Part shown: positions 6,106 to 57,940 of the stretch, in pieces
Layout of the letters: every line of letters begins with the position of its first letter
Numbering within the stretch: position 1 is the stretch's first letter
Assembly (NCBI GenBank): GCA_963921795.1
Contig: OY997656.1
Coordinates: 60,880,709-60,944,708 of the forward strand
DNA from: Nannobrachium achirus
Lineage: Eukaryota; Chordata; Actinopteri; Myctophiformes; Myctophidae
DNA: 64,000 bases
Reading direction: 5' to 3'
Position numbers and translations under genes: made by a program
Notes under the pieces: generated by a model
Told to the model about the DNA's origin: nothing
Seen by the model: only the letters and a program-made list of their open reading frames with translations
Database searches by the model: none

Positions 6106-6290
6106 ATAGCAGATCTACAAGCTCACAACGCGTCGCGAAATTGTGAGAGCCGAAACCAACGTGTTTACATGAGAAGCTGCTGCTGCAACGGCTGTTAGCT
6201 AGGCTACATAGCTACATAGCAGATATACAAGCTCACAACGCGTCGCGAAAGTGACGCCCCGCGACGCGTTGTGAGCTTGTAGATCTGCTA
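6106..6290. repeat. Family P hairpins P1 (half) and P2 (full)
   Basis: P1 at 6106-6137 has AGCAGATCTACAAGCTCACA and no right arm of its own. P2 at 6218-6290 has both arms (left with AGATATACAAG) around a GCGTCGCG-type tip. P1 also pairs with the right arm of P2, giving a larger foldback whose arms continue outwards into ACGAAAA and the CA/TG runs to about 5940 and 6365. Confidence 0.75.
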
Positions 6291-7019
6291 GTTTTCGTGT
6301 GTGTGGACGTTGTGTGTGCGCGCGCGCACTGTCACGACACACACTCACACACACACACTACACAGCAAATAGCTATAGCGTTAGCCTAGCGTCCATTCTT
6401 CACTGGTTCCGTGGTCCAGAGCTGGAGAAAGTGTGTCCATGGATAAAAGCTCAGACCGCTTGTTTGTAAAATACCTGCACATTTTAATTGGTTACAGAAC
6501 ATGGAGTTGCCGAATCTTTATACTTTTTACACCTCCAATGGCTGGTTTTAAAAAAGGTTTCCGAAATGGAAAAGCAACAAGTGCCCACTGCTGACAGCTT
6601 CGGTCTGTCTCTCTCTGATAGAAGATAGACGCATTACTCCGCCCCCTCCCCCCACAACGGCAGATAACCACACCTACATTTTAGAAATCTTTTCATGTTC
6701 TGAAATCCCATAAAACAAATTAGAGGCGGGGTTTCTTATCCCTTTAAGCTAGATGCAGATTAGACTAAAATCAAATCTGTGCTTCTGGGGGTCCCTGGAA
6801 CAAAAAAGTTTGCAATAGGGGTCCATCCATGGAACAAAATATTTTGAGATGGGGGTCCACGGCCAAAAACACATTTTGGGGGTCCTTAACCACTGATAGG
6901 CACATTCTACAAATGTCTTCTAAATCATAACAATTTTCTGAAAAAAACTTATGTTGCCATCAGTGTTTCTCAAACTTTGTCATGTGAAGGACCCCCAGAA
7001 TGGGGGACAGATTTCCATT

Positions 7020-7100
7020 TCGACCCCCCCCCCATTTCGACCCCCCCCCCAAATCTACCCAGCCCCCCCCCCCCCCACTTCGACTCCTCCCCATTTCGAC
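7020..7100. repeat. C-homopolymer tract cluster
   Basis: Several runs of 8-14 C interrupted by ATTTCGA. It terminates the family G copy. Proline-rich frames here are composition artefacts. Confidence 0.8.
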
Positions 7101-7954
7101 CTGGCATACAACCATTGCTCTACACAGAATGGAAAATGGAAATGACAGTTACCAGACTATACCAGTAACGACTCATCGAGAGAGGGAGAGGTTCATATAA
7201 TATATGAACTTTTGGCTATATCCTCTTTTGGCTGTATCCTCTAAAAGCGACCTGATCATTTAGTTGCAGCGCCATGCAGCCGTTAACTGCTGCTGCTTAT
7301 TTATTTAGGAAAAGAAACAAATGACAGAAAGAGAGAGAGTGAGAGAGCGATCGATCCACTCCCTGCCATGTGTGCTGCATATACATAAAGTTCAAGTTCA
7401 AATAGGCTGCCGCCTACATGTATATTCGTTTGTCCCCGAGGGGCGATTTGGTTGCAGCAATAGGCCTACATATTAACTTAAGAGCGCAAATGTGTGCGTG
7501 TGCGTGCGTGTGTGTCCAGAAACGTTTTGGAAACGCCACCTTAATTGTCTTCTTGGCTTGCGATCATAAATAGCCTACGAATAACGAAACCACCAGCAAA
7601 ATATCCTATATCCTTCATCAGATAAATTAAGGGGACTGGGGTAAAGGGATATAAGAAATTGTCCATTTTAGAAGTATTTAAGCCTTTTTGTTCGTTTAAT
7701 GCACTTGTACATGGAGCGATTGGAGTCTATTAGGCTATCTTATAGGCCTATGGGCCGTCAGGCGCGCAAATATGTATTGTTTATGTGATGATGATAATGA
7801 TATATACCGTAGGCCTAATGCAACAGCGCGACAGACAGACAGCGTCGTGCACAACTGTGCGCCTTGTCAGTAGCTATACTGTATATTCCATGTCCATCAG
7901 TTTTGGGCCGACGATATCATTTGATAACAAGACAGACCCCAGCCAAACTGCGAA
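7101..7954. other. No recognised gene
   Basis: Mixed sequence with a small palindrome TTCATATAATATATGAA near 7190, short GA and TG runs (7325-7350, 7490-7515) and an ACAGACAGACAG run near 7830. No coding signal is supported. Confidence 0.4.
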
Positions 7955-7960
7955 AAATTA

Positions 7961-8033
7961 CCGATCTACAAGCTCACAATGAGGTGTGTCTACAGACTAC
8001 ACAACATGCATGCTTGCGAGTTTGCAGATCTGG
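7961..8033. repeat. Family P hairpin P3 (decayed)
   Basis: The left arm has GATCTACAAGCTCACAA and the right arm GCGAGTTTGCAGATCTG. The arms still pair over most of their length but with mismatches, so this is among the more diverged copies. Confidence 0.6.
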
Positions 8034-8039
8034 TGAGCT

Positions 8040-8475
8040 ACCCAAAGGCATACTATTGATTGCGACCGTAGGTCGCATTTACTACCAAAACCTCCACAGG
8101 CTGTCCGTGGGTGAGTCAGTCCGTCCGTCCGTCCGTCACACTTTTGCCCTGCTCATATCTCCACAACCCTTGCCCCCATCCATGCCAAATTTTGCACACA
8201 CACTCCTTGACTGCCAAACTACAACCTCCAAGGACCCCTGGAGCCCCAGGGACCCCCAGGTCCCTGGGCGACCCCCAGATGTAAAAAATGACCAAATGTG
8301 GTCACACGTCACACTTTTTCCCTGCTCATATCTCCGCAACCGTTGACCCGATCCATGCCACATTTTGCACACACACTCCTTGCCTGCCAAACTACAACCT
8401 CCAAGGACCCCCCGAGCCCCAGGGACCCCCAGCTCCCTGGGGGACCCCCAAGTGTAAAAAATGACCAAATGTGCA
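8040..8475. repeat. GACCGTAGGTCGC repeat with 173-bp duplication
   Basis: GTCACACTTTT recurs at 8135 and 8308, opening two direct units, each with CTGCTCATATCTCC, TTTTGCACACACACTCCTTG and CCCCAGGGACCCCCAG. A (GTCC)n run precedes the array. The same GCCCTGCTCATATCTCC start and GTCC/GGAC run occur at both ends of 22686-23560, so the two belong to one repeat family. Confidence 0.7.
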
Positions 8476-8691
8476 AAAATGACCAAATGACCACCCCAAC
8501 GGGGCTGCTCACGGGGAATTCCCGGGGACCACCCACTCCTCGTGCTCCAGAACGGATGCAAAAGTGGTGACGCCCCCAGTGGAGGACCCCCTCCACTGCA
8601 GCTCACATAAAATGCCGCGGTCGCTTATCTCCCGATTAGGGAGTCTTACTGGTTAGATTTGATTAAATAAGCCATGTCACAGTGACCCATT
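8476..8691. repeat. Repeat remnant with CTAATCGGGAGA segment
   Basis: TCTCCCGATTAGGGAGTCTT at about 8624 is the complement of a segment at about 22510. I see no gene; it is a short interspersed fragment of unknown class. Confidence 0.4.
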
Positions 8692-8699
8692 GTAATTTG

Positions 8700-9118: not shown

Positions 9119-9126
9119 GTAATTTG

Positions 9127-9480: not shown

Positions 9481-9486
9481 GATTGC

Positions 9487-9487
<1 letters not shown>

Positions 9488-9548
<61 letters not shown>

Positions 9549-13087: not shown

Positions 13088-13223
13088 CAGACTAGTGGCC
13101 GAGCTGCGAGTAGCTTCACGCAGTTAGCAGTGGCTAACGGCCAACGCTAACGTTAGCTAGCGCTAGCTGCAGGCAAACGCAGGCATCGTATACACAACTG
13201 GAATTGTTGCTCTATTGTTGCTC

Positions 13224-13243
13224 TTCTACAAGCTCACAACGCG
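13224..13243. repeat. Family P hairpin P4 (half copy)
   Basis: TTCTACAAGCTCACAACGCG lacks a partner arm nearby. A solitary half of the palindrome. Confidence 0.5.
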
Positions 13244-13527: not shown

Positions 13528-13606
13528 TTTGAAAATAGCCGATCTACAAGCTCACAACGCATTGCGGTGCGACGCGTTGTGAGCTTGTAGATCTGCTATT
13601 TTCAAA
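13528..13606. repeat. Family P hairpin P5 (full)
   Basis: The palindrome runs from TTTGAAAATAGCCGATCTAC to its complement ending GATCTGCTATTTTCAAA. The stem is over 30 bp with a tip of GCATTGCGGTGCGACGC. The stem includes the TTTGAAAA flank on both sides. Confidence 0.85.
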
Positions 13607-19970: not shown

Positions 19971-20416
19971 CAATGCAGTGATGTTGCTAGGTTTTCAACG
20001 TAATGGGTCCCGGGACCCACAGATGGACTACAATTATTTGAAACTTTAGTTACTTTGGAAAGCATACATTAACCACATCAGCCATGGATATTTTCAAAGG
20101 ACTTTTTATACATTTGGAAACATGTGAAACAGGCTATTATGGATGAATCACATGAAAATAAACAAACAATGAAACGGTTAAACAAAACATAGACCACAGA
20201 AATGTAAAATACTCTCTGGTGGGGGCCAGTTTAATTACAGTCCACACGTGTGGAAATAAATGACTGAATGAATGATGCACTAAGGAAAGAACAGACTTGG
20301 TTTGAGCCAGCAGCCTCAGATGATAACAGCTGGATCTAGAAGACATTGTCTGTCTGGGTCCATTGTACAATTCAACATGTTTAATGTGTTTTTCTCTCAT
20401 TGTACTTTTACACTAG
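19971..20416. other. Intron 3, end
   Basis: Apparently unique sequence ending in TTTTTCTCTCATTGTAC and TTTTACACTAG, a good 3' splice site for the finger exon at 20417. Confidence 0.5.
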
Positions 20417-22332
20417 ACTTCCTGCATCTCTCCGGGTGTGAAGAGGAGTTTCCTGAAGATCAGCAGGAGAGGAGCTCCAGTCTGCTCCAGGAGGAACCAG
20501 AGCCTCCTCTAGAGGAGAGGAGCTCCAGGCTGCTCCAGGAGGAACCAGAGCCTCTGCAGATCAAAGAGGAACAGGAGGAGCTCCTTCAGAGAGCAGAGGA
20601 GTCTGGCGGGACAACGATTACAGTAGTAGTGGTGAGTGGAGACGAGGAGCCTGCAGCCAGCACCTCAGCTGACGTAGAGGACTGTGGGGGGAAACCCCGT
20701 CCGCTGGGAAAACCCTTTATTTGTACGGTCTGTGGCAAAGGATTCCGTCGAAAGGTGCAGCTAGAGAGTCACTTAAGGACACATACAGGAGAAAAACCCT
20801 TTAAATGTACGGTTTGTTCCAGAGGCTTTGCTCACGCGTGTGATCTCAAAAGACACACAATGACTCACACCGGGGAGAAGCCTTTCACTTGTACGGTTTG
20901 TGGTAAAGGCTGCGGTCGAGGGCACGACCTCAAAAAACACATGAGGACTCATGCGAAAAAAAGGGAAAAGCCTTTTAGTTGTTCATTTTGTGGCAAAGCC
21001 TTTGGTGTGAGGGATACTCTAAACGAACACATGTTGACCCATACAGGGGAAAAGCCCTTTAGTTGTTCATTTTGTGGCAAAGCCTTTGGTGCGAGGGGTA
21101 TTCTAAACAAACACATGTTGACCCACACAAGGGAAAAGCCCTTCAATTGTTCAGTTTGTGGAGAAACCTTTGGTTTTCGGGCTCGTCTAGACAGACACAT
21201 GAGCACTCATGAAGGGGTAAAGCCCTTTACTTGTACAGTTTGTGGCAAAGGATACCGTCAAAAGAGTGGGCTAGAGTGTCACGCAAGGTCACATACGGGA
21301 GAGAAACCCTACCGGTGTACAGTTTGTGACAAAAGCTTTGGCGACCCGAGCGTTCTGATTAGACATGCTAAGAGTCACACAGGGAAAAAGCCCTTTAGTT
21401 GCAAAGTCTGTAGAAAAGCCTTCAGTGAGAGATACATGCTAGACAATCACTCAAGGACTCATACAGGGGAAAGACCCTTTCTGTGTACAGTTTGTGGCAA
21501 AACCTTTGGCTATATGTCTGTTCTAAGAGGCCACATGTTGATCCATACTGGGGGAGGAAACTGCATCTATACATGTTCAGTTTGTGAGAGAGGCTTCAGT
21601 GCTCGCACCTCTTTAAAAATGCACATGATGACACACACAGGAGAAATGCCCTTTATTTGTACGTTCTGTGGCAAACAGTTCCGTCAGAAGTGTAACCTAG
21701 AAAGTCACTTAAGGACACATACAGGAGAGAAACCCTATAAATGCAAAGTCTGTTTCCGAGGCTTTGCGTACAACGATCTAAAAAGACACGAGATGACTCA
21801 TACCGGGGAGAAACCTTTCACTTGTACGGTTTGTGGTAAAGGCTGCAGTCGACGGAACGACCTAAAAAAACACATGAAGATGCATACGGGGGAGAAGCCT
21901 TTCAGTTGTACAATTTGTGGCAAAGCCTTCGCTGAGAGAGGTCAAGTAAACGTGCACATGAAGACTCACACAGGAGAGAAGCCTTTTAGTTGTACGGTTT
22001 GTATCAAAGCCTTCGGTGCGAGAAGTACTCTAAAGAAACACATGAGAACTCATACAGGGGAAAAGCCCCATGTGAGGGAAAAGCCCTTGCTTTGTACGGT
22101 GTGTGGCAAAAAGTACAGCTTCTACAATTCTCTGCAAATGCACATGAGGACGCATCATACAGGGGAAACACCCTTTAATTGCTCAGTTTGTGGCGAAGGC
22201 TTTGGTCAAAGGCTTGAGCTGAAAAAGCATATGAGGACACATCCTGAGGGGAAGCCATTTAAATGTGCAGAATGTGGCAAAGCTTTTAGCCATAGACACC
22301 ATCTCAAACGACACATGACCACTCATGCATAG
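20417..22332 (+). CDS. C2H2 zinc-finger protein, acidic and 19-finger terminal exon
   Basis: The exon starts in phase 1 after CACTAG; the split codon gives D, then FLHLSGCEEEFPEDQQE. An acidic region with RSSxLLQEEPEP repeats and IKEEQEEL follows (first about 95 residues). Then come 19 tandem C2H2 fingers, the first FICTVCGKGFRRKVQLESH, joined by TGEKPF linkers: a sequence-specific DNA-binding array acting in the nucleus. The 13th finger (YKCKVCFRGFAYNDLKRH) is one residue short. Two linkers are longer than usual (about 20950, 22070). The TAG stop at 22330-22332 falls where a linker would be, and one more finger continues in frame after it. Probably a lineage-expanded fish zinc-finger regulator; target unknown. 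Confidence 0.88.
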
Positions 22333-24336: not shown

Positions 24337-24745
24337 CAGTGTTTCTCAACCTTTTTTCTGCATGGTCACACTTTTCATGTCCCAAGAATCCATGGTCACA
24401 CCAACATAATACGGGGGTGTAAATATCGTCACTGTCGGGAAGAAACCTCACATCTCCAAGTTTCAAATGTGTACGTTTCTTCGCAAAGTAAAGCCCTGCT
24501 TCATCGTACAAGGCTGTCGCACAACAGTAGTGAAAACAGCAGATCTACAAGCACACAACGCCTCGCACCGCGAGGCGTTGTGTGCTTGTAGATCGGCTGT
24601 TTTCACTAGTTTAAATCTCTTTTTTTTGTTTTTTTTTCCCCAAATGATAAATACAATACTGGCTTTCAAGCAGTTTCAAGGGGCACACTTGACCCTTCTC
24701 AGGGGCACACCAAAGGTCCCCAGGCACAGTGGTTGAGAAACACTG
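24337..24745. mobile_element. hAT-like MITE carrying hairpin P6
   Basis: The ends are CAGTGTTTCTCAACC and GGTTGAGAAACACTG, a perfect 15-bp inverted repeat. The flanks ACCTAGAT and CTCTAGAA agree only partly as a TSD. Internally AGCCCTGCTTCATCGTACAA precedes the family P hairpin at 24528-24610. 409 bp, non-coding. Confidence 0.75.
24528..24610. repeat. Family P hairpin P6 (full)
   Basis: A near-perfect palindrome TAGTGAAAACAGCAGATCTA through GCCTCGCACCGCGAGGC to GATCGGCTGTTTTCACTA. The outer TAGTGAAAAC belongs to the host MITE on one side, since it is also present in the paralogue at 24863. Confidence 0.9.
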
Positions 24746-25049
24746 CTCTAGAAAAGCAGTAGACCCATTTTCTGAGCAGAAACCTTGTATCTCCAAGTTT
24801 AAAATTTGTAATTGTTTTCGGAAAGCAAAGCCCTGCTTCATCATACAAGGCCGTCGCACAAAAGTAGTGAAAACAGCAGATCTACAATCTACAATCATTT
24901 GTAAAATGATAAATACAAAACAAACGGTTTTGGACATACAAGGTTTCCACCCGACAACGACAAAATATAACTCATGTAATTGGCCCACTGGCTTGTCACT
25001 TGTCATGATCTGAAATGGCAAATCTTTGAGTAGCAGATCTCTCTCTCTC
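24746..25049. repeat. Second partial MITE copy with collapsed hairpin P7
   Basis: 24780-24925 repeats 24440-24660 (CATCTCCAAGTTT-like start, then AGCCCTGCTTCATCATACAA, then AATGATAAATACAA). The hairpin is reduced to GTGAAAACAGCAGATCTACA followed by ATCTACAATCATTTG, so the right arm and tip are missing. Confidence 0.65.
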
Positions 25050-27745: not shown

Positions 27746-28114
27746 CAGTGGTTCTCAACCTTTTCAGGCTGCGACCCCCAAAATAATCATATCATTATTT
27801 TAATAACCCAAAATAACCAAAATAGCAGATCTACATGCTCACAGAGCATGTATATCTGCTATTTTCACAATTTCTTCCTCTAATATTTGACAATTTGGCC
27901 ACTGTTTAATTTGCCATTTTAGATGAAATTAAAAGTCCTTAAATTGTCACTTTATAAATGTGCAGATACCCTCTATACACTTAAACGTTATGTTGGTTTG
28001 TTTACTGTTGAGTGAGAAAACAATATTTCACATTAAGTTAATATCATCTGGGGACCCTCCGAAATAATTTGGGGACCCCCCTGGGGGTCCCGACCCACAG
28101 GTTGAGAACCACTG
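27746..28114. mobile_element. hAT-like MITE with perfect TSD and hairpin P8
   Basis: TTCTACTC flanks both sides (27738-27745, 28115-28122). The ends are CAGTGGTTCTCAACC and GGTTGAGAACCACTG, a perfect 15-bp inverted repeat. Hairpin P8 (27819-27867) has AATAGCAGATCTACATGCTC and a very short AGAG tip. 369 bp, non-coding; inserted in the ACTTTTACT repeat. Confidence 0.92.
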
Positions 28115-35200: not shown

Positions 35201-35321
35201 TGGTTTTGATCTGTACTAGGTTTGTTTGCACAGATCCTTGTCCAGCTGGTATATTACGCCTAACTGGTCGAACAGTTATAATTGTTTTAATTTGGGTAGG
35301 TGGCTGCTCTGGTGGAAGCAC
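32295..35321 (-). CDS. L2-clade LINE ORF2: endonuclease and reverse transcriptase
   Basis: 1008 residues without interruption. An APE-type endonuclease spans residues about 50-270: [32 protein letters not shown] and SDHYLI. Reverse transcriptase spans about 480-760: [57 protein letters not shown] and the catalytic [11 protein letters not shown]. The C-terminal region includes [24 protein letters not shown] and [11 protein letters not shown]. It nicks DNA and copies its own RNA at the nick. ORF1 ends 51 nt upstream. The open frame and full domain set suggest a young, possibly competent copy, though its 3' end looks rearranged. Confidence 0.92.
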
Positions 35322-35372
35322 AGAGAAGTGTGTAAGACTGCAACTCTGCTTTCTGGTCCCAACTCTGGTTGG

Positions 35373-37314: not shown

Positions 37315-37386
37315 ATTGTGAAAATAGCAGATCTACATGCTCACAACGCCTCGCTATTGAGCATGTAGATCTGCTATTTTCACAAT
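37315..37386. repeat. Family P hairpin P9 (full)
   Basis: ATTGTGAAAATAGCAGATCT and its complement AGATCTGCTATTTTCACAAT surround ACATGCTC arms and a CAACGCCTCGCTATT tip. It shares the ATGCTC stem variant and the ATTGTGAAAA outer arm with P11. Confidence 0.88.
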
Positions 37387-37914: not shown

Positions 37915-38060
37915 CAGTGGTGCTCAAAAAAGGAACCCCAAGATATGTATTTGGCCGCGGACCCCCATTTCAAAATAGTTTGTTCCAGGGACCCCCCCCC
38001 CCCCCCCAGAAGCATTAAAGTTACACCTTTTTCAGAAAATAGCAGATCTACAATCTTGCA
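37915..38060. repeat. MITE fragment with partial hairpin P10
   Basis: CAGTGGTGCTCAAAAAAGGA then GATATGTATTTGGCCGCGGA and a C-run match the family G core (compare 10885-10960). It ends with GAAAATAGCAGATCTACAAT, a half P hairpin without right arm. Confidence 0.55.
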
Positions 38061-38566: not shown

Positions 38567-38805
38567 CAGGGGTTCTCAAACCTTTTTAGGCCATGACCCC
38601 CAAAATAAACATATTTGAACTGGGGACCCCCACCCTGACAAGCACTTGGAATTGTAGGAATTACATTTAATGTGACTCGGTTCCACAGATAAATATTGTG
38701 AAAATAGCAGATCTACATGCTCGCAAAGCGAGGCGTTGTGAGCATGTAGATCGGCTATTTTCACAATGTTCGCCTCTTGCTTACTTAATATTTGCCAGTT
38801 TGGTC
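38567..38805. mobile_element. hAT-like MITE with hairpin P11
   Basis: Begins CAGGGGTTCTCAAACC with GCCATGACCCCCAAAATAAA, matching 27746-27810. After the hairpin the right flank TATTTGCCAGTTTGG matches 27880-27900. The right end is missing. P11 at 38694-38767 is full, with outer arm ATTGTGAAAA and tip GCAAAGCGAGGC. Confidence 0.65.
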
Positions 38806-39480
38806 AGTCCTGTTGAATATTCGACAATTCGAATACTTTGAGGTCGAATAATTCGAATACTAAAAATCGCTATTCGTGAATGCCCTAGCTTGTAGATTGG
38901 CAAAGATATGTTTTTGTCAAAGAGATTTGGTAGAGTGAAGTGGTCCGTTTTAAATGGTACTGGATATGCAGCTCGGCAAATAAAAGGTGAATTGATCCCA
39001 GTGCATGACGGAGGACGATATCATGATAAATTAAATCTCGTGAGTGTTTTTATCAGGATAAACCATATTAATGATTATCATCCCATCACTGATGGCTCTT
39101 CCCTTCAGCAACTCTTCTCCTGCCATCACAGACCTCCATTCAGAAACAGTTTACAGTTTAGGCATTTAGCAGACGCTTTTAATCCAAAGCGACTTACAAA
39201 AAAAGAAACACCCCCACTTAGAAACATCCCCATTCAGAAATACCCCCACTGAGGTTAGGGTTAGGGTTTAGGTTAGATTTAGGTGACACCTCCATTTAGA
39301 ATAATGGAAGTCAATCTTCTGAATGGCAATGTTTCTGCGTCGTAAGGTGGTTTCTGGAACGCAGAGTAACCGTTTAAATCCAGCGATCTCCACCACTGAA
39401 AAGGATCGCATGTTGCGTTCCGACCGCACCGGGCGTTTCTTGAGCTGTTGGTGGCTGTCGTCCTTTTCCGTCCGGATAGG
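38806..39480. repeat. MITE remnants and conserved TTTAATCCAAAGCGAC tail
   Basis: The first 80 bp are the TATTCG-rich element. CAGTTTAGGCATTTAGCAGA with TCCAAAGCGACTTACA at 39156-39200 is the same conserved tail as at 22463. Then AACACCCCCACTTAG repeats and GGTTAGGGTTAGGG at about 39245. No gene is supported. Confidence 0.45.
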
Positions 39481-40561
39481 GAAATGAAAGGTGCTGCAGC
39501 CTCGGACGCTACGATGAAACACTGGAGAGGAAAAACACGGTTTATCTCTGCAAACTCATCGGTCGGCCTGCCTTCTTTCAACCTGAAGAAAAGTAAGCCT
39601 GCTGCACGAAATGACAACAACATGAAATAACTGGCGATACGGCTTGGAATTTCAATAACGGTATTGAACATCGATTTCAATTGAATTGGGATACATACAG
39701 TATGGATACATTTACTGTACACACCCCTGTATCTTTAAAACTAAGAGCATCGTAGTGAGGTGTCGAAAGTTCTAAATGCTCCTGTAGAACCCCCGAGTAT
39801 GTATGCAATCACTCTAGTTTTAGTAAAAAAAACGTTTTAATCAAGATTGCACGGAGAAGAACTGCATTACCCATACCCATAGTGCTAAAAATGTACATCC
39901 GGTGAAATCGACGTCTGTGATTGGTCTAGCTTCTTCTTTCATGTATCTTGCGGTTACCGCAGATTATTGCACTTCAGCAGAAATCCGTGAGCGAGCGTCT
40001 TTCTTTTACAAATATGATGCACTATGTTAAGGATGACGATAAGAGCGTCCACAGAGATGACAATCACTACATTTCAGGCCATATGCTGGCCTGGATAACT
40101 AAACTGAGCGTGATTTAAGGGATATATTTCAGGAAACAAGTGTCATTCGCAATGCATTCTGGGAGTGTAGTTTCCGTATTTTTTTAAATAATGATGTACA
40201 CAGTCTTGTACCCTGCCCTTTTTTCAGCTTTCTAATTAATCGTTGCATTAAACAAAAATGAATATTGTCATGATTCCTCACCAGTCGAGGTGGCTTTGTC
40301 AGTATAGACGTTAAATAAATACTTTATGAAATGTCTATGGAAGAAATGAATGGGGAAAACGGTTCCGACACTACGCTCTATTTAGTGCAGTCACTACATA
40401 TGAAAAAACCTAGAACAAATTGCAATAGTAGCAAACTCAACTGATTCTGTATCCTCATTATGTCCAGGACCACACATTCACCCACGTTTTGCCCACCAAT
40501 GTGAGAACAATTAACATATAAGCAAACAAACAAAAAAAACAACCACTTCAATGTTTTGTCC
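39481..40561. other. No recognised gene
   Basis: Apparently single-copy AT-rich sequence downstream of the minus-strand zinc-finger gene. The word GCAATGCATTCTGGGAGTGT (about 40150) is MITE-like. No exon is visible. Confidence 0.35.
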
Positions 40562-40620
40562 TAAAATAGCCCGTCTACAAGCTCCCAACACATTGTGAGC
40601 TTGTAGATCTGCCATTTTGT
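40562..40620. repeat. Family P hairpin P12 (short tip)
   Basis: AAAATAGCCCGTCTACAAGC pairs with GCTTGTAGATCTGCCATTTT around an ACACATTGT tip; two mismatches in the stem. On the minus strand ATTAAA just beyond (about 40622) might serve the zinc-finger gene 3' end. Confidence 0.8.
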
Positions 40621-40805: not shown

Positions 40806-41866
40806 CTAAAGCTCCCCCTCCACGGTGTGAGCCCTCTTCATGTGCGTTTTTAGATTCCCCAGTTGACCGAAACCTTTGCCACAAACCGAACAAGTGAAGG
40901 GTTTCTCTTTGGTATGAGTGGTCATGTGTGCGGTCACGTGAGCCGTCTGGCTGAAGCCTTTTCCACAGACCGTGCAGTTAAAGGGTTTCTCCCCCGTATG
41001 AGTCCTCATGTGGTTCTTCAGGTCGTCAATGCGACCGCAGCCTTTCCCGCAGAGCGCGCACGTGTAGGGTTTCTCCCCCGTGTGCGTCCTCATGTGCTTC
41101 CTCAGGTTGCTCATGTGACCGCAGCCTTTCCCGCACACCGTACAAGTGAAGGGCTTCTCCCCGGTGTGAGTCATCATGTGTGACTTCAGGTTGCCCCGCT
41201 GGCCGTAGCTTTTGCCACAAACGGTGCAGTTAAAGGGTTTCTCTCCCGTGTGCGTCATGGCGTGCCGGTCCAGGTGAGACTTCCGGTCGAACGTTTTGTC
41301 GCACTCCGTGCAGCCGAAGGTTTTCTTGGGCGACTTCAGGGCGTCCAGCGCGGCCGACTCGTATTCCATGGCCGTCTCCTCCCACGCACCGCCGTTGTCC
41401 TCGGCGTCGGATTCAGAGCGGCGTGGAGACAGGAGGAGCTGCTGGTTGTCTCCAGTCGCCTGCTGCGATGCGACCCAGTACTTTATATAAGCTGCTGTTT
41501 TCATGTGTTCACTGGAGGAGCCGGCGAGAGGCTCTGCCGTCTCTCTGTTCTCATCTTCATCTTCATCTTCTTCACCTGTCAACACTGAGCCTTCAGCCTG
41601 CTCTGATGTTTCAAGGAGATCCTCCGGTTCCTCTTTGATCCGTAGAGGAGGCTCTGGTTCCTCCTGGAGCAGCCTGGAGCTCCTCTCCTCAGGTTGTGGT
41701 TCCTCCTGGAGCAGCCTGGAGCTCCTCTCTTCAGGTTGTGGAGGCTGAGGTTCCTCCTGGATCAGCCTGGAGCTCCTCTCCTCAGGTTGTGGTTCCTCTT
41801 GGAGCAGCCTGGAGCTCCTCTCTTCGGGGGAAACCCTCTCCTCGCGCACAGGGAGGAGCCGGAAGT
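40806..41866 (-). CDS. C2H2 zinc-finger protein, acidic and six-finger terminal exon
   Basis: The minus-strand exon starts after TTTCTCTTTGGTCCAG in phase 1 and has 353 codons to the stop. It begins (D)FRLLPVREERVSPEER, then five RSSRLxQEEPQP-type repeats, IKEEPEDLLE, an Asp/Glu run, and six C2H2 fingers (FGCTECDKTFDRKSHLDRH to FTCSVCGKGFGQLGNLKTH). It ends VEGEL. It is a nuclear DNA-binding regulator of the same fish family as the gene at 20417. The upstream exon(s) were not found: a BEL/Pao element lies 118 bp beyond the 3' splice site, and the sequence past it holds no recognisable leading exon. Shorter finger array than its paralogue. Confidence 0.85.
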
Positions 41867-41984
41867 CTGGACCAAAGAGAAAATGAGAGAAGAACAAATA
41901 AAGTTGATGCAACACACTGTAGGCTTGTAGAGCCCCTTGGGACCCCAAAAGTAGAAAAACTTTCAAGTAACACTGCTTAGTTTC

Positions 41985-42370
41985 TGTTGGAGCCAAAATA
42001 CAATTGTTTATTTGTTTATTATTTTTATTCATCACAGAGGTGTGGTACTGTCTGTCGCCATGGCAACCGCCACAGGGGGGTGGGTACTGCCACAGGGGGT
42101 GGTTACATTTAACCTTGACAATGGCCGTGGCAACTCAGGTGTGCAAAGGGGAAAACGCCAAACAGTTTTAGACCGTGTCGTGTGTCGCCACGCAGGTTTT
42201 GTTGGCTTTCAATACATTTTTTGGATCACTGTATGTCTTAACTTTATGCAAAATAAAAGGATTGTAATATCCAAACTGAGACAACTTTTTGGACATTGAA
42301 TTTCACGCACGCGTCCTACTAAGGCAACCCGATGCCCCTCGCTGTAGGTCTACAGGTAAAGGCTTCTACA
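41985..42370 (+). repeat. Left LTR of the BEL/Pao element
   Basis: 386 bp, TG...CA ends, GTTTC target copy directly before it. Contains an AATAAAAGG word near 42252. Confidence 0.92.
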
Positions 42371-45300
42371 TTGTCTAAAACTAGGCTTTTCATTTGAAGT
42401 GGACATTTGAAAGTTATTTTTTGGAAGACGGCTTTAAGCGCTGGTCATTGGGACCGCGTTGATCGGCGACAGTGAAAATATACATTGGCCTATGGATTTT
42501 TGCACGTTTTTGATTACCGTTTCGCGTTGAAACAAGAACCGACTGGATCAGTACACGGACCTGTTGCTCGGCCCGGCGTACCCGGCACCGTTTGGACGGA
42601 GTCACGGAGAGGAGCGGCCCGCCTGCACTGGGAGTTGATAGCGGGGTTCGGCCCGGCGTTTGGAAGAAGAGGACAGCGCGTCACAGCGGAGCTGCCCGGC
42701 CTGCACCCGGAGTTAATCGCGGAGTCCGGTCCAGCAACCCGGCGTTCGGCCAGGGCAACGAACGCAGCACCGTGGGACCGAGTGGAGCTTCCCGCCTGCA
42801 TTAGGAGGAGGTGATCGCGGCGTTTGGACAACGATCCGGCGGCGAACTACGCCGTTTTGCACCGACAAGGAGCAGCCGCTTGCACCAGTGGAGTTGATAA
42901 AACTCGAAGCTTTTTTGAAGTTTAAAGTCACGGTCACGGGCCCGTCAGCACACAGACAAAGAAAAGAAAGAGGTATGTAGCGCGCTACAAGGGTACTCTG
43001 GCCATGAAACAATTGTGTGCACACAGGTCTTTTACAAACCCAATGCATTGGTGGTTTACATTTTATGATTGCAATTTAACCTGTTCGTGGGTTCATGCTT
43101 GATGCTTCACTGTTTCATTTTATTCATTTTATGGTTGCAACCCGTTCGTGGGTCTTTTTTGAAGGTTTGAGGTTCTTATTGTTGGTTTTGCGCAGTTTTC
43201 CGATTTCACTGAAGGCACTGTTTTATCGTTGAACTGCTGGTATTATATTGCATTGCTGTTATTATGTCTGATGGTGTGAATCCAAATGAGTTATTCATGC
43301 ATGTTGAACAGCCCGCCACGGCTGAAACACCTACTGACGCAATGGGCGAACGTGAACTTGAATCTGCGCAGATTGAATCAGACACGCTGTCTGCAAAGCA
43401 TCCACAGCCCCCAGCGGCTGAAAATACAGGTCAAACCACTCCGAATGTCGAAACTGAGACCCATGTTACAAAACGAAAAAGCATACTGACACATAAAGCA
43501 CTGCTGGATAAACTGGAGACGTTGCAAAAGGAGAGAAAATCCAAGTTGAATAAGGCATCTAACCAACAAAAAAGCATTTTGGAGTGGATGCAAACTGGTC
43601 CCAAACATGAGGTACAATGCTTGTTTATGAAATATTTAAACATAATCAAGGAAGCAGGATGTGCCCAGAAGGCTCTGTTGCAAATATTGCCCCCAGAGGA
43701 GAAAGCAAAACACGATCTGTGGTTCAATGCAAAAATGATTAATGTCAATGATTTTGTTGATGAAGTGAATGCTTGGACCCAAAATGCAAAGGCTGTTGAA
43801 GATGATGATGATGATGATGATGATGACGACATGGAAAATCTAATTAAACCATCGGATAGCATTTCAAATGTGGAGAGTAAAACTGCTTCTAAAAGTCAGA
43901 CAAGGTCTGGAATCAGCAGGAACAGCAGCAGATCTTCCACAGCATCAGCTTGCCTACAGGCAGAGGCAGAGAGAGCTGCACTAGTGATCAAAACCGCTGC
44001 ATTAAAGGAGAAGTACGCTCTGGAGGAGCAGGAGAAAATTCTGTAAAGGAACAGAGAAATGATGGAGGAGCAGGAAGAAATGTTAAAAAGGAAAAAGGAA
44101 ATGATGGAGCTTGACGCTCAACTGAGGGCTACTGATGCCAAAATTGCAGTGTTAAACTCCCCCAGTCGCCAAGCCCTTTCCCTCACCCTTTCAGATGGAA
44201 TGGAATCTTATCACAGGAAAGGAACCATGTTAAAAGAACCCACAACTACAGTCAATCCTCAAGCTAAAGAGTTTATTCAAACTTTCACTCAGTTACCTCC
44301 ACAGCAACAGATAATTCAACTTCCTACGCAGCTATCTCTAATACCACAGCAACAGTCTATTCAACCACCACACCAGCAACAACCTGCTCAACAACCTGTG
44401 GTCCAACAACAACCATCGCTATGGCAAACACATTCTGTTCAACAACCTACACACCTGGAACAACAGCCAACACCCATTCAAATACAACCACCAACTGTTC
44501 AAAGAACACGTGTATCTTGGGATGCATTGCAGGGCAGTACTCAGGACACTTCAATATACGGGGGCCCTTCTGTTCAGCAAACAAACACAGCTACAACTCC
44601 CCAAAACAACGACACTTCCGCTATATGCAACCTGCTACAGAGACAAAATGACATAACGGCAATGCTAGTGGAGCAGCAAACCACTCATTTATTACCACCA
44701 AGAGAGATCCCTTGGTTTGATGGAGACCCCCTGCAATATAGGACCTTTATTCGGGCATTTGAACATTGTGTAGAGAAGAACACAAAAAATAGAGGTGATT
44801 GTTTGTATTTCTTGGAAAAATACACCAGGGGTCAGCCCAAGGAGCTTGTGCGTAGCTGTCAGCACATGGCACCAGATAGAGGCTACGACATGGCAAAATG
44901 CTTACTTGAACAACACTTCGGCGACGAATACAAAATCACAGCAGCTTACATGGAGAAGATGCTCAACTGGCCGTTGGTGAAGTCTGAAGACGCAAAATCT
45001 CTTCAAGCCTATGCTCTTTTCCTTCGGGAATGCTGTAATGCAATGGAGAATGTGTTGTATATGAGAGAACTCGATATGCCAGCGAACATGAAGATATTGG
45101 TTTCGAAACTCCCATTTAAGCTAAGAGAGAATTGGAGAGTCTCTGCATGTTCGATAATGGAAAGGCATCATCGAAGACCACAATTTACAGACATTGTCAC
45201 ATTCATCGAGCGGCAAGTCAAGATCATTTCAGATCCGGTCTTTGGAGACATCCAAAGTACACCACAGAATGCAGGAGGTAATAGGATGAAAACACAAATC

Positions 45301-47107
45301 AAACCCCGGTTCCAAGGAGACATGGTCCAAAGAAGACAAAGTTTTGCAACCACAGTTACCATTGACACCCCTATTACAGAAGACCAAGAAAGCTCTAACC
45401 CAGTTCAAAGGCAAGGTACTGTGGCCACTCAAAATCCAGTTTGTTTATGCTGCTCTGAAAATCACTCTCTGGACAGATGTCCTCAGATTGAAAAGAGAAC
45501 GCACAGGGACAAGATTACTTTTATGAGGAAAAAAGGAATCTGTTTTGGCTGTCTCCACATTGGACATCTTAGCAGGAATTGTAAGAAGCGTTTGACCTGC
45601 AATGTCTGCAACCAAAACCATCCCAGCATTCTACACATTAATTTTCAAGCGGAGACCGCAAGCAACACAAACCCAAACCAACCAAGAAACCCAGCAGTAA
45701 GTAATGCGCTTGTCTCTTTGCAAGCATATGGGCAAACAGGGGCCGGAGAGAGCAATGGCATTCTCTCCATCTTACCTGTACAGGTGAAGTCCATCGAGGG
45801 AGACAAAATTATTCAAACATACGCCTTCTTGGATCCAGGTAGCACCGATACATTTTGTTCAGAAGCCCTCATGAGAAAGCTGAACCTTAAAGGCAAGCAA
45901 ACACAAATCAGCTTATTGACTATGGGACCAAAGGCATCCGTCCCCAGCTACATACTTACCAACTTGGAGATTGCAAGCCTCACTGGTAATCAGTTTTATG
46001 AACTGCCTAAAGTCTACACCCAGAAGAGAATGCCAGTAAGTCCACATAACATCATCAAAGACAAAGAACTGTCTAAGTGGCAATACTTGGATGGTATTTC
46101 TGTCCCTCATATTCAGGCTCCTGTAGAGTTGTTGATAGGTACCAATGCCTCTAAACTGCTTGAGCCCAGGGGAGTGGTGAACAGCCGTGGCAATGGGCCA
46201 TACGCCATTAAGACCCTACTGGGGTGGGTCATTAATGGTCCCCCACCAAAAGACATTGAGGAGCGTAACAGTGGCTACCCAGCTGCTGCCAACAGGACCT
46301 CCATAATAAATATGGAGGAATTGCCCCACAAAGATTGTGGTGGTGTTGATAGGCAACACACTGGGCTAAGAACGCTGAAAAGGAATGATGACAAACTGAA
46401 CCCCATTCTGAAGGATGGGCTCCTAAGATTTGGCAGGAGGTTGAGTAGGGCAGAAATGTCTGAGGAACCCAAAATTCACCTCGCGAAAGACCTCCGTATT
46501 GCCAATCAAATCCGAAAGCCCACAAACAGATTTGGAAGGAGGTTGAGTAGGGCAGAGATGTCTGAGGAAGCCAAATTTCACCTCGCGAAAGACCTCCATG
46601 TTTCAAATCCAATCCTAAAGACCATCAACGAACACGTGGGACATGGTGGGACAAACCATGTTCACTCCAGAATAAGGAGAAACGACTGGAACATCGCTGC
46701 CAATGCAGCAACCAGAAAATGGTGTCCAACTCTCTTCTACAGGCACCACGGAAGGCCTCCTCAAAAGGAGATGAAGATGAGTCGAATGCATCTTGGACCG
46801 TTAATGGAAACCCTGGCTGATAAGAAGACCTGCCACTGCTATGGTAGCAGCAGAGGAAAAATATGGAGGGACAGCAGACCTCTCACAGACAAACAGGTTT
46901 CCTGCAAGAGTCCTGGTGACCTATGCCGACAGGACAGGACTGGAGCATTAGGCACTAACGTGGACTAAAATGAGTTCACTGGTTTGCCCAGCCACAGTTA
47001 TGATTTTGATTGATTTTGTTTTTGTTTTGTATATTGTTTTGGCTCCATTATTTGAATATTGTTTGAATTGTTCCTGGCCTCCTGCCATCCTCAATTAGGG
47101 GCCGGAG

Positions 47108-52690: not shown

Positions 52691-55600
52691 GATTCTAAAA
52701 CCACCTGCTATGCCCAATGTGTTTGGTAGATTCTAAAACCACCTGCTATGCCCAATGTGTTTGGTAGAGGATTCTAAAACCACCTGCTATGCCCAATGTG
52801 TTTGGTAGATTCTAAAACCACCTGCTATGCCCAATGTGTTTGGTAGATTCTAAAACCACCTGCTATGCCCAATGTATTTGGTAGAGGATTCTAAAACAAC
52901 CTGCTATGCCCAATGTGTTTGGTAGAGGATTCTAAAACCACCTGCTATGCCCAATGTGTTTGGTAGATTCTAAAACCACCTGCTATGCCCAATGTGTTTG
53001 GTAGAGGATTCTAAAACCACCTGCTATGCCCAATGTGTTTGGTAGAGGATTCTAAAACCACCTGCTATGCCCAATGTGTTTGGTAGAGGATTCTAAAACC
53101 ACCTGCTATGCCCAATGTGTTTGGTAGATTCTAAAACCACCCGCTATGCCCAATGTGTTTGGTAGATTCTAAAACCACCTGCTATGCCCAATGTGTTTGG
53201 TAGAGGATTCTAAAACCACCTGCTATGCCCAATGTGTTTGGTAGATTCTAAAACCACCTGCTATGCCCAATGTGTTTGGTAGAGGATTCTAAAACCACCC
53301 GCTATGCCCAATGTGTTTGGTAGAGTAGATTCTAAAACCACCTGCTATGCCCAATGTGTTTGGTAGATTCTAAAACCACCTGCTATGCCCAATGTGTTTG
53401 GTAGAGGATTCTAAAACCACCCGCTATGCCCAATGTGTTTGGTAGAGTAGATTCTAAAACCACCTGCTATGCCCAATGTGTTTGGTAGATTCTAAAACCA
53501 CCTGCTATGCCCAATGTGTTTGGTAGATTCTAAAACTGCCCGCTATGCCCAATGTGTTTGGTAGAGGATTCTAAAACTACCCACTATGCCCAATGTGTTT
53601 GGTAGATTCTAAAACTACCCGCTATGCCCAATGTGTTTGGTAGATTCTAAAACTACCCGCTATGCCCAATGTGTTTGGTAGATTCTAAAACTACCCGCTA
53701 TGCCCAATGTGTTTGGTAGATTCTAAAACCACCTGCTATGCCCAATGTGTTTGGTAGAGGATTCTAAAACCACCCGCTATGCCCAATGTGTTTGGTAGAG
53801 GATTCTAAAACTACCCGCTATGCCCAATGTGTTTGGTAGAGGATTCTAAAACCACCCGCTATGCCCAATGTTTTTGGTAGAGGATTCTAAAACCACCTGC
53901 TATGCCCAATGTGTTTGGTAGATTCTAAAACCACCCACTATGCCCAATGTGTTTGGTAGAGGATTCTAAAACCACCTACTATGCCCAATGTGTTTGGTAG
54001 ATTCTAAAACCACCCGCTATGCCCAATGTGTTTGGTAGAGGATTCTAAAACCACCTGCTATGCCCAATGTGTTTGGTAGATTCTAAAACCACCTGCTATG
54101 CCCAATGTGTTTGGTAGAGGATTCTAAAACCACCCGCTATGCCCAATGTGTTTGGTAGAGTAGATTCTAAAACCACCTGCTATGCCCAATGTGTTTGGTA
54201 GATTCTAAAACCACCTGCTATGCCCAATGTGTTTGGTAGATTCTAAAACTGCCCGCTATGCCCAATGTGTTTGGTAGAGGATTCTAAAACTACCCACTAT
54301 GCCCAATGTGTTTGGTAGATTCTAAAACTACCCGCTATGCCCAATGTGTTTGGTAGAGGATTCTAAAACCACCTGCTATGCCCAATGTGTTTGGTAGATT
54401 CTAAAACCACCCGCTATGCCCAATGTGTTTGGTAGAGGATTCTAAAACCACCTGCTATGCCCAATGTGTTTGGTAGATTCTAAAACCACCTGCTATGCCC
54501 AATGTGTTTGGTAGATTCTAAAACTGCCCGCTATGCCCAATGTGTTTGGTAGAGGATTCTAAAACTACCCACTATGCCCAATGTGTTTGGTAGATTCTAA
54601 AACTACCCGCTATGCCCAATGTGTTTGGTAGAGGATTCTAAAACCACCTGCTATGCCCAATGTGTTTGGTAGATTCTAAAACCACCCGCTATGCCCAATG
54701 TGTTTGGTAGAGGATTCTAAAACCACCTGCTATGCCCAATGTGTTTGGTAGATTCTAAAACCACCTGCTATGCCCAATGTGTTTGGTAGAGGATTCTAAA
54801 ACCACCCGCTATGCCCAATGTGTTTGGTAGAGTAGATTCTAAAACCACCTGCTATGCCCAATGTGTTTGGTAGATTCTAAAACCACCTGCTATGCCCAAT
54901 GTGTTTGGTAGAGGATTCTAAAACCACCCGCTATGCCCAATGTGTTTGGTAGAGTAGATTCTAAAACCACCTGCTATGCCCAATGTGTTTGGTAGATTCT
55001 AAAACCACCTGCTATGCCCAATGTGTTTGGTAGATTCTAAAACTGCCCGCTATGCCCAATGTGTTTGGTAGAGGATTCTAAAACTACCCACTATGCCCAA
55101 TGTGTTTGGTAGATTCTAAAACTACCCGCTATGCCCAATGTGTTTGGTAGATTCTAAAACTACCCGCTATGCCCAATGTGTTTGGTAGATTCTAAAACTA
55201 CCCGCTATGCCCAATGTGTTTGGTAGATTCTAAAACCACCTGCTATGCCCAATGTGTTTGGTAGAGGATTCTAAAACCACCCGCTATGCCCAATGTGTTT
55301 GGTAGAGGATTCTAAAACTACCCGCTATGCCCAATGTGTTTGGTAGAGGATTCTAAAACCACCCGCTATGCCCAATGTTTTTGGTAGAGGATTCTAAAAC
55401 CACCTGCTATGCCCAATGTGTTTGGTAGATTCTAAAACCACCCACTATGCCCAATGTGTTTGGTAGAGGATTCTAAAACCACCTACTATGCCCAATGTGT
55501 TTGGTAGATTCTAAAACCACCTGCTATGCCCAATGTGTTTGGTAGAGGATTCTAAAACCACCCGCTATGCCCAATGTGTTTGGTAGATTCTAAAACCACC

Positions 55601-56268
55601 CGCTATGCCCAATGTGTTTGGTAGAGGATTCTAAAACCACCCGCTATGCCCAATGTGTTTGGTAGATTCTAAAACCACCCGCTATGCCCAATGTGTTTGG
55701 TAGATTCTAAAACCACCCGCTATGCCCAATGTGTTTGGTAGATTCTAAAACCACCCGCTATGCCCAATGTGTTTGGTAGATTCTAAAACCACCCGCTATG
55801 CCCAATGTGTTTGGTAGATTTCTAAAACCACCCACTATGCCCAATGTGTTTGGTAGATTCTAAAACCACCTGCTATGCCCAATGTGTTTGGTAGATTCTA
55901 AAACCACCCACTATGCCCAATGTGTTTGGTAGATTCTAAAACCACCTGCTATGCCCAATGTGTTTGGTAGATTCTAAAACCACCCGCTATGCCCAATGTG
56001 TTTGGTAGATTCTAAAACCACCTGCTATGCCCAATGTGTTTGGTAGAGGATTCTAAAACCTCCTGCTATGCCCAATGTGTTTGGTAGAGGATTCTAAAAC
56101 CACCTGCTATGCCCAATGTGTTTGGTAGAGGATTCTAAAACCACCCGCTATGCCCAATGTTTTGCTATGCCCAATGTGTTTGGTAGAGTAGATTCTAAAA
56201 CCACCTGCTATGCCAATGTGTTTGGTAGATTCTAAAACCACCTGCTATGCTCAATGTGTTTGGTAGAG
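52691..56268. repeat. 38-43 bp satellite block, about 90 units
   Basis: Unit GATTCTAAAACCACCTGCTA then TGCCCAATGTGTTTGGTA, with optional GAG or GAGTA linkers giving 38, 41 or 43 bp. Variants include ACCACCCGC, ACTACCCGC and ACTGCCCGC. A block of at least 730 bp (53281-54012) recurs 1507 bp later (54788-55519) with its rare variants in register. Non-coding. Confidence 0.95.
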
Positions 56269-56797
56269 CGCGCCTGCTAACCTGACACTCAACGCAGACC
56301 ATGAAAAGTAGCACAGAGCCTAGAGGGAAATGGGATACATACTGAATAATAAAGCTCCCTACAGACAGACTGCCGTTAACTCTTTTACCGCTTCGAACGT
56401 TAACGCTCGTCCCAATTCTGAACGCGGCTCAAAGCCAATACGAACGCTTGTTCTTTTACCTTGTCTGAGCACTGTAAGCTGATGAGGGGTCGCGCGGGTT
56501 TGTACAGTAAAAACATCTCCCGTAATGCTGCTTTCAAATCTCTACCACACGTTAACATCAATGATGTCCAATTCACTTCCTGGCTGTTCTCTGTGGACCT
56601 CATCTAGATTATGCATTTCTACGCTCTGAACAACGGAAAAAGGGAGGGCCATTTCACATCCATTGATTGCATAAGGCAGCCCCCTGCCGTCAGTTTGGCT
56701 ACAGTACACATATATGTGTCCACTGAAAACGATTATGTTTGGAAATCATCCATAGATAATTTTCTATAACATCGCAAAGGTAAGCTACTTTGATGGC
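56269..56797. other. No recognised gene
   Basis: Single-copy looking sequence between arrays; an AATAAAGC word at about 56347. No ORF with support. Confidence 0.4.
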
Positions 56798-57075
56798 ACC
56801 AGCACAAATAAAATAAACAAATAAATAATACATATGGCAGTAGAACTGTTTTTAATAACTAAGTACAAACTTCTTAAAATGTGACTTTTTTTATGAAACA
56901 CTGAACTCAACGGAGAGTTGTTGAGACAGACGGCACCAGCACAAATATAATAAACAAATAAATAATAAATATGGCAGTAGAACTGTTTTTAATAATAACT
57001 AAGTACAAACTTCTTAAAATGTGACTTTTTTTTATGAAACACTGAACTCAACGGAGAGTTGTTGAGACAGACGGC
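56798..57075. repeat. Tandem duplication, about 138 bp
   Basis: GGCACCAGCACAAATAAAAT and GGCACCAGCACAAATATAAT open two direct copies, each ending CAACGGAGAGTTGTTGAGAC. Confidence 0.85.
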
Positions 57076-57097
57076 AGAGAAATGCAGATTGCAGACT

Positions 57098-57405
57098 GAA
57101 GAATGCATTGCAGGGTGTGAACAAGATGAGGATATGGACTAAACATAACACTAGCAGACAGAAGAATGCATTGCAGGGTGTGAACAAGATGAGGATAAGG
57201 ACTAAACATAACACTAGCAGACAGAAGAATGCATTGCAGGGTGTGAACAAGATGAGGATAAGGACTAAACATAACACTAGCAGACAGAAGAATGCATTGC
57301 AGGGTGTGAACAAGATGAGGATAAGGACTAAACATAACACTAGCAGACAGAAGAATGCATTGCAGGTTGTGAACAAGATGAGGATAAGGACTAAACATAA
57401 CGCTA
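57098..57405. repeat. 63-bp tandem array, five units
   Basis: Units of GCAGACAGAAGAATGCATTG, CAGGGTGTGAACAAGATGAG and GATAAGGACTAAACATAACA plus CTA. 63 is a multiple of three, so both strands show long repeat frames (such as NKMRIRTKHNTSRQKNALQ). Confidence 0.92.
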
Positions 57406-57443
57406 ACATTGGAAAGGTAATCTCTCACTCTCTCAGTCTCTAC

Positions 57444-57940
57444 CAGGGGTGTCACACCAAATTCTGGGCCCTGGGTACAAGGATTCACTGTGGGCCCCCC
57501 ATGAATGTTAACTATTGAAAAATAGCAGATCTACAAGCTCACAGCACTGAGCACTGCACTGAGTGCCGCGCTGTGAGCTTGTAGATCTGCTATTTTTGAA
57601 AAATCTTGAAAATGTGTGCAAGAAACCTATATGTCAAGGACCCCCAAGATGATATGTATTTGGCCACGGACCCCGATGTCAAAATATTTAGTTCCAGGGA
57701 CCCCCAGAAGCAAAATTTGAGTTAAAAATGTTCGCTTAAAAAATACATATATTCAAAGATTTTCACACATTTTCACAACTTTTCAAAAATAGCAGATCTA
57801 CAAGCTCGCAGCGCGGCACTCGGTGCCGCGCTGTGAGCTTGTATATCTGTTATTTTTCAATAGATAAAGTTACTATAGGGCCCCTCCACCTTGGGCCCCG
57901 GTAACTCAGTCCCACTTTCCTACCCCTTGTGATGCCCCTG
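57444..57940. mobile_element. hAT-like MITE with perfect TSD, composite interior
   Basis: GTCTCTAC flanks both sides (57436-57443, 57941-57948). The ends are CAGGGGTGTCACA and the complement of CAGGGGCATCACA. The interior holds two family P hairpins and, between them, a fragment of the GGACCCCC core of family G (57640-57715). Non-coding. Confidence 0.88.
57512..57863. repeat. Family P hairpins P13 and P14 in inverted arrangement
   Basis: P13 (57512-57600) and P14 (57778-57863) are each complete palindromes (tips GCACTGAGCACTGCAC and GCGGCACTCGGTGCCGC). Their flanks pair with each other: CTATTGAAAAAT with ATTTTTCAATAG outside, and GAAAATGTGTG with CACACATTTTC inside, so the pair forms a larger palindrome. 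Confidence 0.85.

Follow-up and report, generated by a model that had tools for sequence, protein, structure and literature searches.

How does one short palindrome come to lie inside transposable elements with different ends, and how do its two arms stay complementary? The question is raised by a stretch of 64,000 nucleotides from the fish Nannobrachium achirus (assembly GCA_963921795.1, contig OY997656.1, positions 60,880,709 to 60,944,708), here called the window, which lies near the end of a 61.7-Mb contig and contains a palindromic hairpin repeat that we named P. Its arms were sought with the 20-mer AGCAGATCTACAAGCTCACA. The elements in which P lies have various ends, some hAT-like with 8-bp duplications and some of the TTAA type. 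It is probably a palindromic internal module of miniature inverted-repeat transposable elements (MITEs) that is swapped between families by nesting and end replacement, amplified by the transposases of its hosts and kept in a paired state by foldback copying or selection.

Abundance, anatomy and pairing of the P hairpin

With up to three mismatches allowed on both strands, AGCAGATCTACAAGCTCACA was found 19 times in the window and not once in 100 shuffled versions. A search of the entire genome (1.66 Gb, 564 contigs), proposed in the original prediction made from the letters of the window, yielded 68,398 exact matches, 34,519 forward and 33,879 reverse. The reversed word does not occur in the genome, which together with the shuffles rules out chance or low complexity. 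A prokaryotic or viral source is ruled out by the absence of exact matches in viral contigs and the single match in bacterial and archaeal genome contigs, which is near the chance level (estimated at about 0.5). An Rfam scan of the window at gathering thresholds gave no match at any P copy, so that in the window P is not a curated RNA family, microRNAs included; the sole match was a UnaL2 LINE (long interspersed nuclear element) 3' element at 39156-39210 on the minus strand. In a literature search by titles and abstract openings, with few subscription journals covered, the P hairpin was not mentioned; a 12-letter piece of its arm turned up in one paper, which concerns a microalga.

The copy number was estimated from 20 stretches of 10 kb, taken at arbitrary round coordinates from 20 contigs and comprising 185,158 unmasked bases. 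A loose word search revealed 81 loci in this sample, in contrast to 3 arms for the reversed word. A profile built from 34 hairpins, partly drawn from the same stretches, identified at E<=1e-3 71 loci in the sample, none in reversed sequence and 11 in the window, where P is therefore not enriched (11 in 64 kb); the matched bases make up 2.3% of the sample. Extrapolation results in 6.4 x 10^5 copies per genome (4.3-8.7 x 10^5 when the stretches are bootstrapped). The sample contains 13 exact 20-mers, whereas 7.6 are expected from the genome-wide count; calibration accordingly lowers the value to 3.7 x 10^5, and P is estimated to occur in about 4-6 x 10^5 copies. The extension AGTGGAAAT joined to the arm was found exactly 2,218 + 2,042 times in the genome, which means that this one flank family comprises thousands of copies.

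The structure was derived from 66 two-armed hairpins, pooled from the window, from targeted loci and from the 20 arbitrary stretches, with repeats removed. In 30 hairpins the two 20-mers are separated by exactly 21 nt; the spacer is shorter in 26 and longer in 10. In the commonest form, a 61-bp palindrome with 29-bp arms and a 3-nt loop, the 21-nt spacer consists of nine further pairs and the loop, and the tip occurs as several matched types. The predicted constant stem with a free tip is thus only partly correct: a free tip is not supported, the tip of the commonest form being itself a covarying stem. Ten window copies were folded as DNA, as had been suggested. For nine of them the fold is better than that of any of 200 shuffles (z -6.3 to -15.7), but that of the copy at 7950-8044 is not significant (z -1.6, with 14 of 200 shuffles equally good).

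Covariation was studied in the 22 copies with a core of exactly 61 bp among 35 hairpins. In these copies 89.3% of the paired cells match, and pairing falls to 31-45% when the partner is slid by one to three columns. Changes on both sides were found at 20 of 39 pairs versus a mean of 11.4 in shuffles, which do not preserve the relatedness among the copies and none of which (0 of 500) reached as many; each covarying pair has few states. At one inner pair, counted in the entire genome by exact matches to 22 fixed bases and hence in the least changed copies, G:C occurs in 3,422 and C:G in 25,927 copies (29,349 matched), as opposed to 81 + 61 = 142 mixed copies. By arithmetic from these counts, free mixing would yield about one fifth mixed copies. 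The paired stem changes that, according to the original prediction, would support a distinct element are therefore abundant.

Pairing extends beyond the core. The identity of P between families stops about 5 bp outside the core, and pairing continues for a few more bases: at positions 7-9 outward, 49% of the flanking bases pair versus 26% (maximum 40%) in 500 cross-family shuffles of 47 distinct flank combinations. The excess is no longer clear at positions 10-12 (37% versus 31%, maximum 41%) and beyond, although single copies pair further. The pairing into copy-specific flanks noticed at the outset is thus real and specific to the flank family. Outer pairs that are family-specific and fade after about position 9 suit a local copying reaction. 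The pairing of the stem, including the first few flank bases of each family, may be renewed by DNA-level foldback copying, either template switching or hairpin-guided repair, and is perhaps also favored through a benefit of the hairpin to its carriers; either templated events or selection could lie behind it.

Arm position 4 is informative in this respect. Among the 66 hairpins, 27 have A in both arms and 23 have A in one arm and C in the other. The C arm is mostly on a constant side in a given flank family (AGCC in 5 of 6 members of cluster 1, C or T in 4 of 4 of cluster 6, GCC in 3 of 3 of cluster 17, 2 of 4 in cluster 11, mixed in cluster 18), and its partners are mostly AGCA. The same A/C asymmetry in hosts with different flanks indicates that the whole hairpin was handed on rather than remade from one arm, which shows that P usually moved as a whole unit. 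Copying by foldback, as originally envisaged, agrees with the paired changes, but it did not remake the hairpin from one arm each time.

Carriers of P and their ends

The flanks of P are diverse. With L003 and L007 excluded because they overlap L002 and L006, 158 flank sides fell into 24 recurrent clusters of at least two members and 66 single sides; the clusters are partly interrelated, so that this number overcounts the families. If P were the inside of one MITE, its flanks would be constant, which is ruled out by the clusters, the single sides and the family-specific outer pairs. The outcome that would have spoken against the original prediction, a stem always embedded in the same flanks, was thus not encountered, and P is a distinct repeat both by its estimated 0.4-0.6 million copies and by flanks that are not those of one MITE.

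The search for element ends required 12-bp ends that match with up to 2 mismatches and an 8-bp duplication with up to 1 mismatch, within 700 bp of a hairpin; L003 and L007 were again left out. Such ends were found around 9 of 95 hairpins, in 8 elements that include L001 and L004, sampled because they hold the 20-mer, compared with 13 of 1500 control places. The hAT-like ends are of six types: CAGTGGTTCTCA, CAGGGGTGTCAC, CAGGGGTTTTCA/CAGGGGTCTTCA, CAGTGGTGTAAA, CAGGCACGTGCA and, from a separate search, TAGGGCTGTCAC. The latter type has an exact 8-bp duplication, TTGGTGAA, in L025 and is weaker in L013; the same search for TAGGGC-type ends found none at L041, L042, L046 and L016. Elements with CAGTGGTGTAAA ends we take to be Tol2-like by their ACTTTTACTT body. 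Where ends were found (9 of 95 hairpins plus L025), the carriers display the terminal inverted repeats and the duplication of MITEs. Other carriers are of the TTAA type, such as L009 8708-9292 (TTAACCCATTTAGGCC) and, by eye, L008, and TTAA-type ends also surround hairpins inside CAGGGGTCTTCA hosts. The 9-mers AGTGGTTAA or ATGGGTTAA, picked after inspection, point outward in 14 of 158 flank sides and inward in none, and the plain hexamer outward in 18 versus inward in 5. The labels hAT-like and piggyBac-like are presumptive: they were assigned from end letters and duplication length according to family traits.

Direct evidence that P-bearing cores have changed ends was obtained from two arrangements. 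Bases 180-426 of the hAT-ended element 57444-57940, including a hairpin, match the TTAA-ended elements L008 (90%) and L009 (85%), and bases 1-58 and 427-497 have no match in the L008 and L009 elements. In L019 8397-8540, examined by eye, the same hAT left end (CAGGGGCGTCGCACCAAAT) leads directly into TTTAACCCATTTAG, followed by inner sequence of the TTAA family, as expected where a TTAA element has inserted into a hAT-like one. P carriers are more alike between families in their internal region than in their ends, a feature by which the coral CMITEs are recognized. The evidence supports, without proving it, the view that P was already present when the host families multiplied. P would spread between families when P-bearing MITEs insert into other MITEs or gain new ends from them, and the transposases of its hosts, rather than a transposase specific to P, would multiply it. 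Where whole elements are seen, amplification by host transposases most simply explains the copy number, and it would apply by extension to most copies.

Ordinary hitchhiking is an alternative. P would be the remnant of one successful old MITE nested in others, and its paired changes would mark a few founder subfamilies, in line with the few states of each covarying pair, the few mixed copies at the counted inner pair, the TTAA-type ends within CAGGGGTCTTCA hosts and the nested arrangement in L019. Yet the founders themselves must have changed in both arms at many pairs, and the differences of the outer pairs between flank families are not accounted for by a single founder. We consider this history tenable but doubtful.

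The genome contains potential sources of transposase. At least 150 hAT dimerisation domains were scored among 1,653 candidates, some with long open reading frames (ORFs), and L048 contains two open frames with a Hermes-type DNA-binding domain and a dimerisation domain. Hairpins near hAT transposase ORFs were examined at L029, L034-L035, L047 and L048; 8 of 12 hAT transposase loci have no hairpin at E<=0.01. L047 is dense in hairpins, but a search for ends that would assign them to one autonomous element found none. The many dimerisation domains bear on another explanation, in which selection keeps the structure, either as a cis-acting part that aids hAT-like and piggyBac-like transposases or as a structured RNA. 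The strong covariation, the symmetrical placement of two hairpins in the end regions of the 57444 element and the occurrence of the same module behind different kinds of ends are also in its favor. Arguing against selection are the position of P, which varies by family (close to the center of L001 and to both ends of the 57444 element), the common mismatch at arm position 4, the negative Rfam result for the window and the existence of copies without hairpin, although these say little on whether such copies moved. Selection as the sole cause is unlikely.

Two further arrangements of P were observed. In L014 5815-6055, the hairpin lies, by eye, inside an element with inverted ends resembling TCGTCGTTGTCGGGTGGAAA. 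L006 2139-2712 is a tandem array with 14 arm matches, each a half P arm plus AAGTTACCAGGGC or a longer piece; this array is a satellite seeded by a P hairpin.

Copies without hairpin and the mobility of P

If P inserted by itself, copies of its hosts with a precise empty site should exist. Joined flanks were used as queries; the search of the sample hid spanning alignments with a gap of at least 30 near the junction, i.e., hairpin-bearing copies. The 64 tests on the sample yielded two copies plainly without hairpin. One, L025:338-626, also lacks part of its flanks, about 10 and 24 bp; the other, L019:8397-8512, is the different, TTAA-type sequence described above, at 75% identity. Genome-wide searches with two families scored the best 40 candidates out of 151 and out of 456, and short copies were picked, so that the proportions given below need not be representative. 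Sixteen of the 49 matches listed for the ATTGTG family were examined; they contain 4-36 nt between two fixed flank words in more than 10 kinds of junction, several retain a piece of one arm and two (L062, L064) are identical. The junctions of the short copies vary widely in both families and often fall at short direct repeats.

Several results weigh against P as an internal module exchanged among MITEs. Only one core is shown to have changed its ends; in flank families 11/12, 17/20 and 5/18 a nested TTAA element was not seen. The search for matching ends with an 8-bp duplication came up empty within 700 bp of 86 of the 95 hairpins, and hence most P copies are not shown to lie inside a whole element. 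A looser TTAA test was not clearly enriched (7 of 95 versus 79 of 1500). The nested arrangement in L019 and the missing ends at most hairpins weigh in opposite directions. As to the pairing, covariation between subfamilies counts inherited changes repeatedly, and the persistent A/C mismatch means that foldback copying leaves some sites uncorrected. Finally, some short copies share junctions. Three of the 16 ATTGTG-family copies nearly agree in GTGAAAATAGCACAAT (two exact, one with one change), and six of ten short Tol2-like copies, among 50 matches listed, share GTTTGAAAATAGCC, one of them with a substitution; of the other four, two have TTTGCAAATAGCC or TTTTCAAATAGCC, one has an arm remnant and one is different. 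The GTTTGAAAATAGCC junction is the slippage product expected between the flanking 7-bp direct repeats AAATAGC, but it could also reflect an insertion that duplicated AAATAGC.

The shared Tol2-like junction, as a possible empty site with a 7-bp duplication, is one argument for a P that is itself mobile, a 61-80-bp palindrome inserting alone and often into small palindromic sites of other transposons. This scenario would also account for the many different flanks, for the copies (most of them) around which no larger element was found and for pairing that runs on a few bases past the point, about 5 bp outside the core, at which families cease to be identical, as if P had landed in small palindromes. 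The joined-flank tests speak against it, since the two copies without hairpin were one with flank lost and one of a different sequence, as do the more than 10 junctions and the arm pieces in the ATTGTG family and the failure to see a constant duplication. In the sample and in the ATTGTG and Tol2-like families, neither a precise empty site nor a target duplication of P's own was established, the GTTTGAAAATAGCC junction being readable either way, and independent mobility seems quite unlikely. A bolder proposal makes P a structure-dependent parasite of transposons that lacks a transposase of its own. By foldback-primed template switching it would pass between hAT-like and piggyBac-like elements and rewrite the flanks to lengthen its stem, and the same reaction would synchronize the arms. 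We give this proposal the least credence. In the module model that we prefer, the short copies may be read as hosts from which the hairpin was lost.

The closest known analogues of P are Angel and the coral CMITEs, and by description P appears to work like a mixture of both. In zebrafish, the DNA transposon Angel reaches a high copy number and forms a stable stem-loop, and compensatory changes were reported in two of its copies, located in long noncoding RNAs (PMC3636048). Angel is also named as the internal inverted repeat of medaka Tol2, and a figure legend places an Angel element inside Tol2 (PMC8151067). Like P, Angel can thus sit inside a hAT element and shows compensatory changes. As described, Angel is a single family of DNA transposons; P, by contrast, is a 61-bp core found behind many types of ends, with paired changes between whole flank families. 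The CMITEs of Acropora have a 75-bp internal region that is better conserved than the ends, and TTAA duplications, as also seen in the P carriers L009 and, by eye, L008; they are piggyBac-like, and tandem arrays and a new element made by insertion were also described (PMC2872659). The six CMITE families keep a CC[C/T]T end motif and TTAA duplications, with about 1,600 copies estimated, and a palindrome is not mentioned in the parts of that report consulted (PMC2872659). Judged by these descriptions, P differs by its palindrome, its far higher copy number and its additional occurrence behind hAT-like ends. Template switching was proposed to create and maintain RNA hairpins (PMC8794818). In that proposal, reverse-complement copying at the DNA level restores both arms together; it was made for RNA genes (PMC8794818), whereas P would be a repeat with very many replicates.

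It has long been asked whether a change in a long stem takes two single mutations, with a mismatched stage between them, or one templated event. P is a large natural data set on the spread of hairpins and the maintenance of pairing, and its copies (an estimated 4-6 x 10^5; 3,422 / 25,927 / 142 at one pair) allow the alternatives to be tallied for each pair in turn. P also places a single internal module behind ends that belong to different kinds of transposons, so that copy counts by internal sequence mislead annotation. P is a real and very abundant module, and how its pairing is kept is a testable question. The REP and REPIN palindromes differ from P in being bacterial and, probably, in being linked to a dedicated transposase, RAYT. 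They resemble P in being very short dispersed palindromes with a conserved arm (PMC3116915).

P copies and other features of the window

The motif or a weaker form of it was present within 13 bases of each of the roughly 14 starts first listed for P, and those at 6106, 13224, 24864 and 38037 turned out to be only single arms or fragments. The weaker arms at 13219, 24875 and 40568 were added by a second search. The statement that many copies lie inside hAT-like MITEs is supported for some, three of them in the window and with 8-bp duplications; around 86 of 95 hairpins such ends were not found.

P copies and P-carrying elements in the window
Feature	Position	Strand	Evidence
Single left P arm, partial duplicate of the next copy	6102..6144		word match, profile
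P hairpin, longer tip	6214..6296		word match, profile, flank cluster 23, fold
Degenerate P hairpin, non-significant fold	7952..8032		profile, fold
Fragment of one P arm	13219..13238	+	weaker-arm search
P hairpin adjoining Tol2-like sequence, paired extension TTTGAAAAT/ATTTTCAAA	13529..13605		profile, clusters 3/6, fold
P hairpin, covarying variants CACACA/TGTGTG and GCCTCGC/GCGAGGC, extension TAGTGAAAAC/GTTTTCACTA	24530..24606		profile, cluster 5, fold
Deleted P copy in a second element, same host family as 24530..24606	24875..24893	+	weaker-arm search, joined flanks
hAT-like MITE, ends CAGTGGTTCTCA, exact 8-bp duplication TTCTACTC, carrying P 27818-27867	27746..28114		end search, profile
P hairpin, short tip, ATGC/GCAT stem variant	27818..27867		profile, fold
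P hairpin, ATGC/GCAT variant, extension ATTGTGAAAAT/ATTTTCACAAT	37318..37383		profile, cluster 12, fold
Fragment of one P arm	38041..38060	+	word match
P hairpin, ATGC/GCAT variant, short tip	38698..38764		profile, fold
Degenerate P hairpin, short tip	40561..40619		profile, fold
hAT-like MITE, ends CAGGGGTGTCAC/CAGGGGCATCAC, exact 8-bp duplication GTCTCTAC, one P hairpin per end region	57444..57940		end search
Left P hairpin of MITE 57444..57940	57517..57599		profile, fold
Right P hairpin of MITE 57444..57940, tip type AGCGCGGCAC/GTGCCGCGCT	57783..57858		profile, fold

The sequence beside the copy at 13529..13605 is presumably Tol2-like, and no ends of a Tol2-like element were found there. Outside the two P copies at 6108 and 6289 (window 6030-6370), the flanks form inverted repeats of each other and run into CA/TG repeats (cluster 23).

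Other features of the window include two long ORFs at 32295-36338 on the minus strand, LINE-like by eye, with endonuclease and reverse transcriptase and an upstream ORF, and two ORFs at 43264-46968 on the plus strand whose products by eye resemble BEL/Pao-type retrotransposon proteins, with a 102-bp internal repeat. A satellite with a 38/79-bp unit and about 88 short units occupies 52691-56164, and ORFs at 20302-22332 (plus strand) and 40806-42035 (minus strand) encode, by eye, C2H2 zinc fingers.

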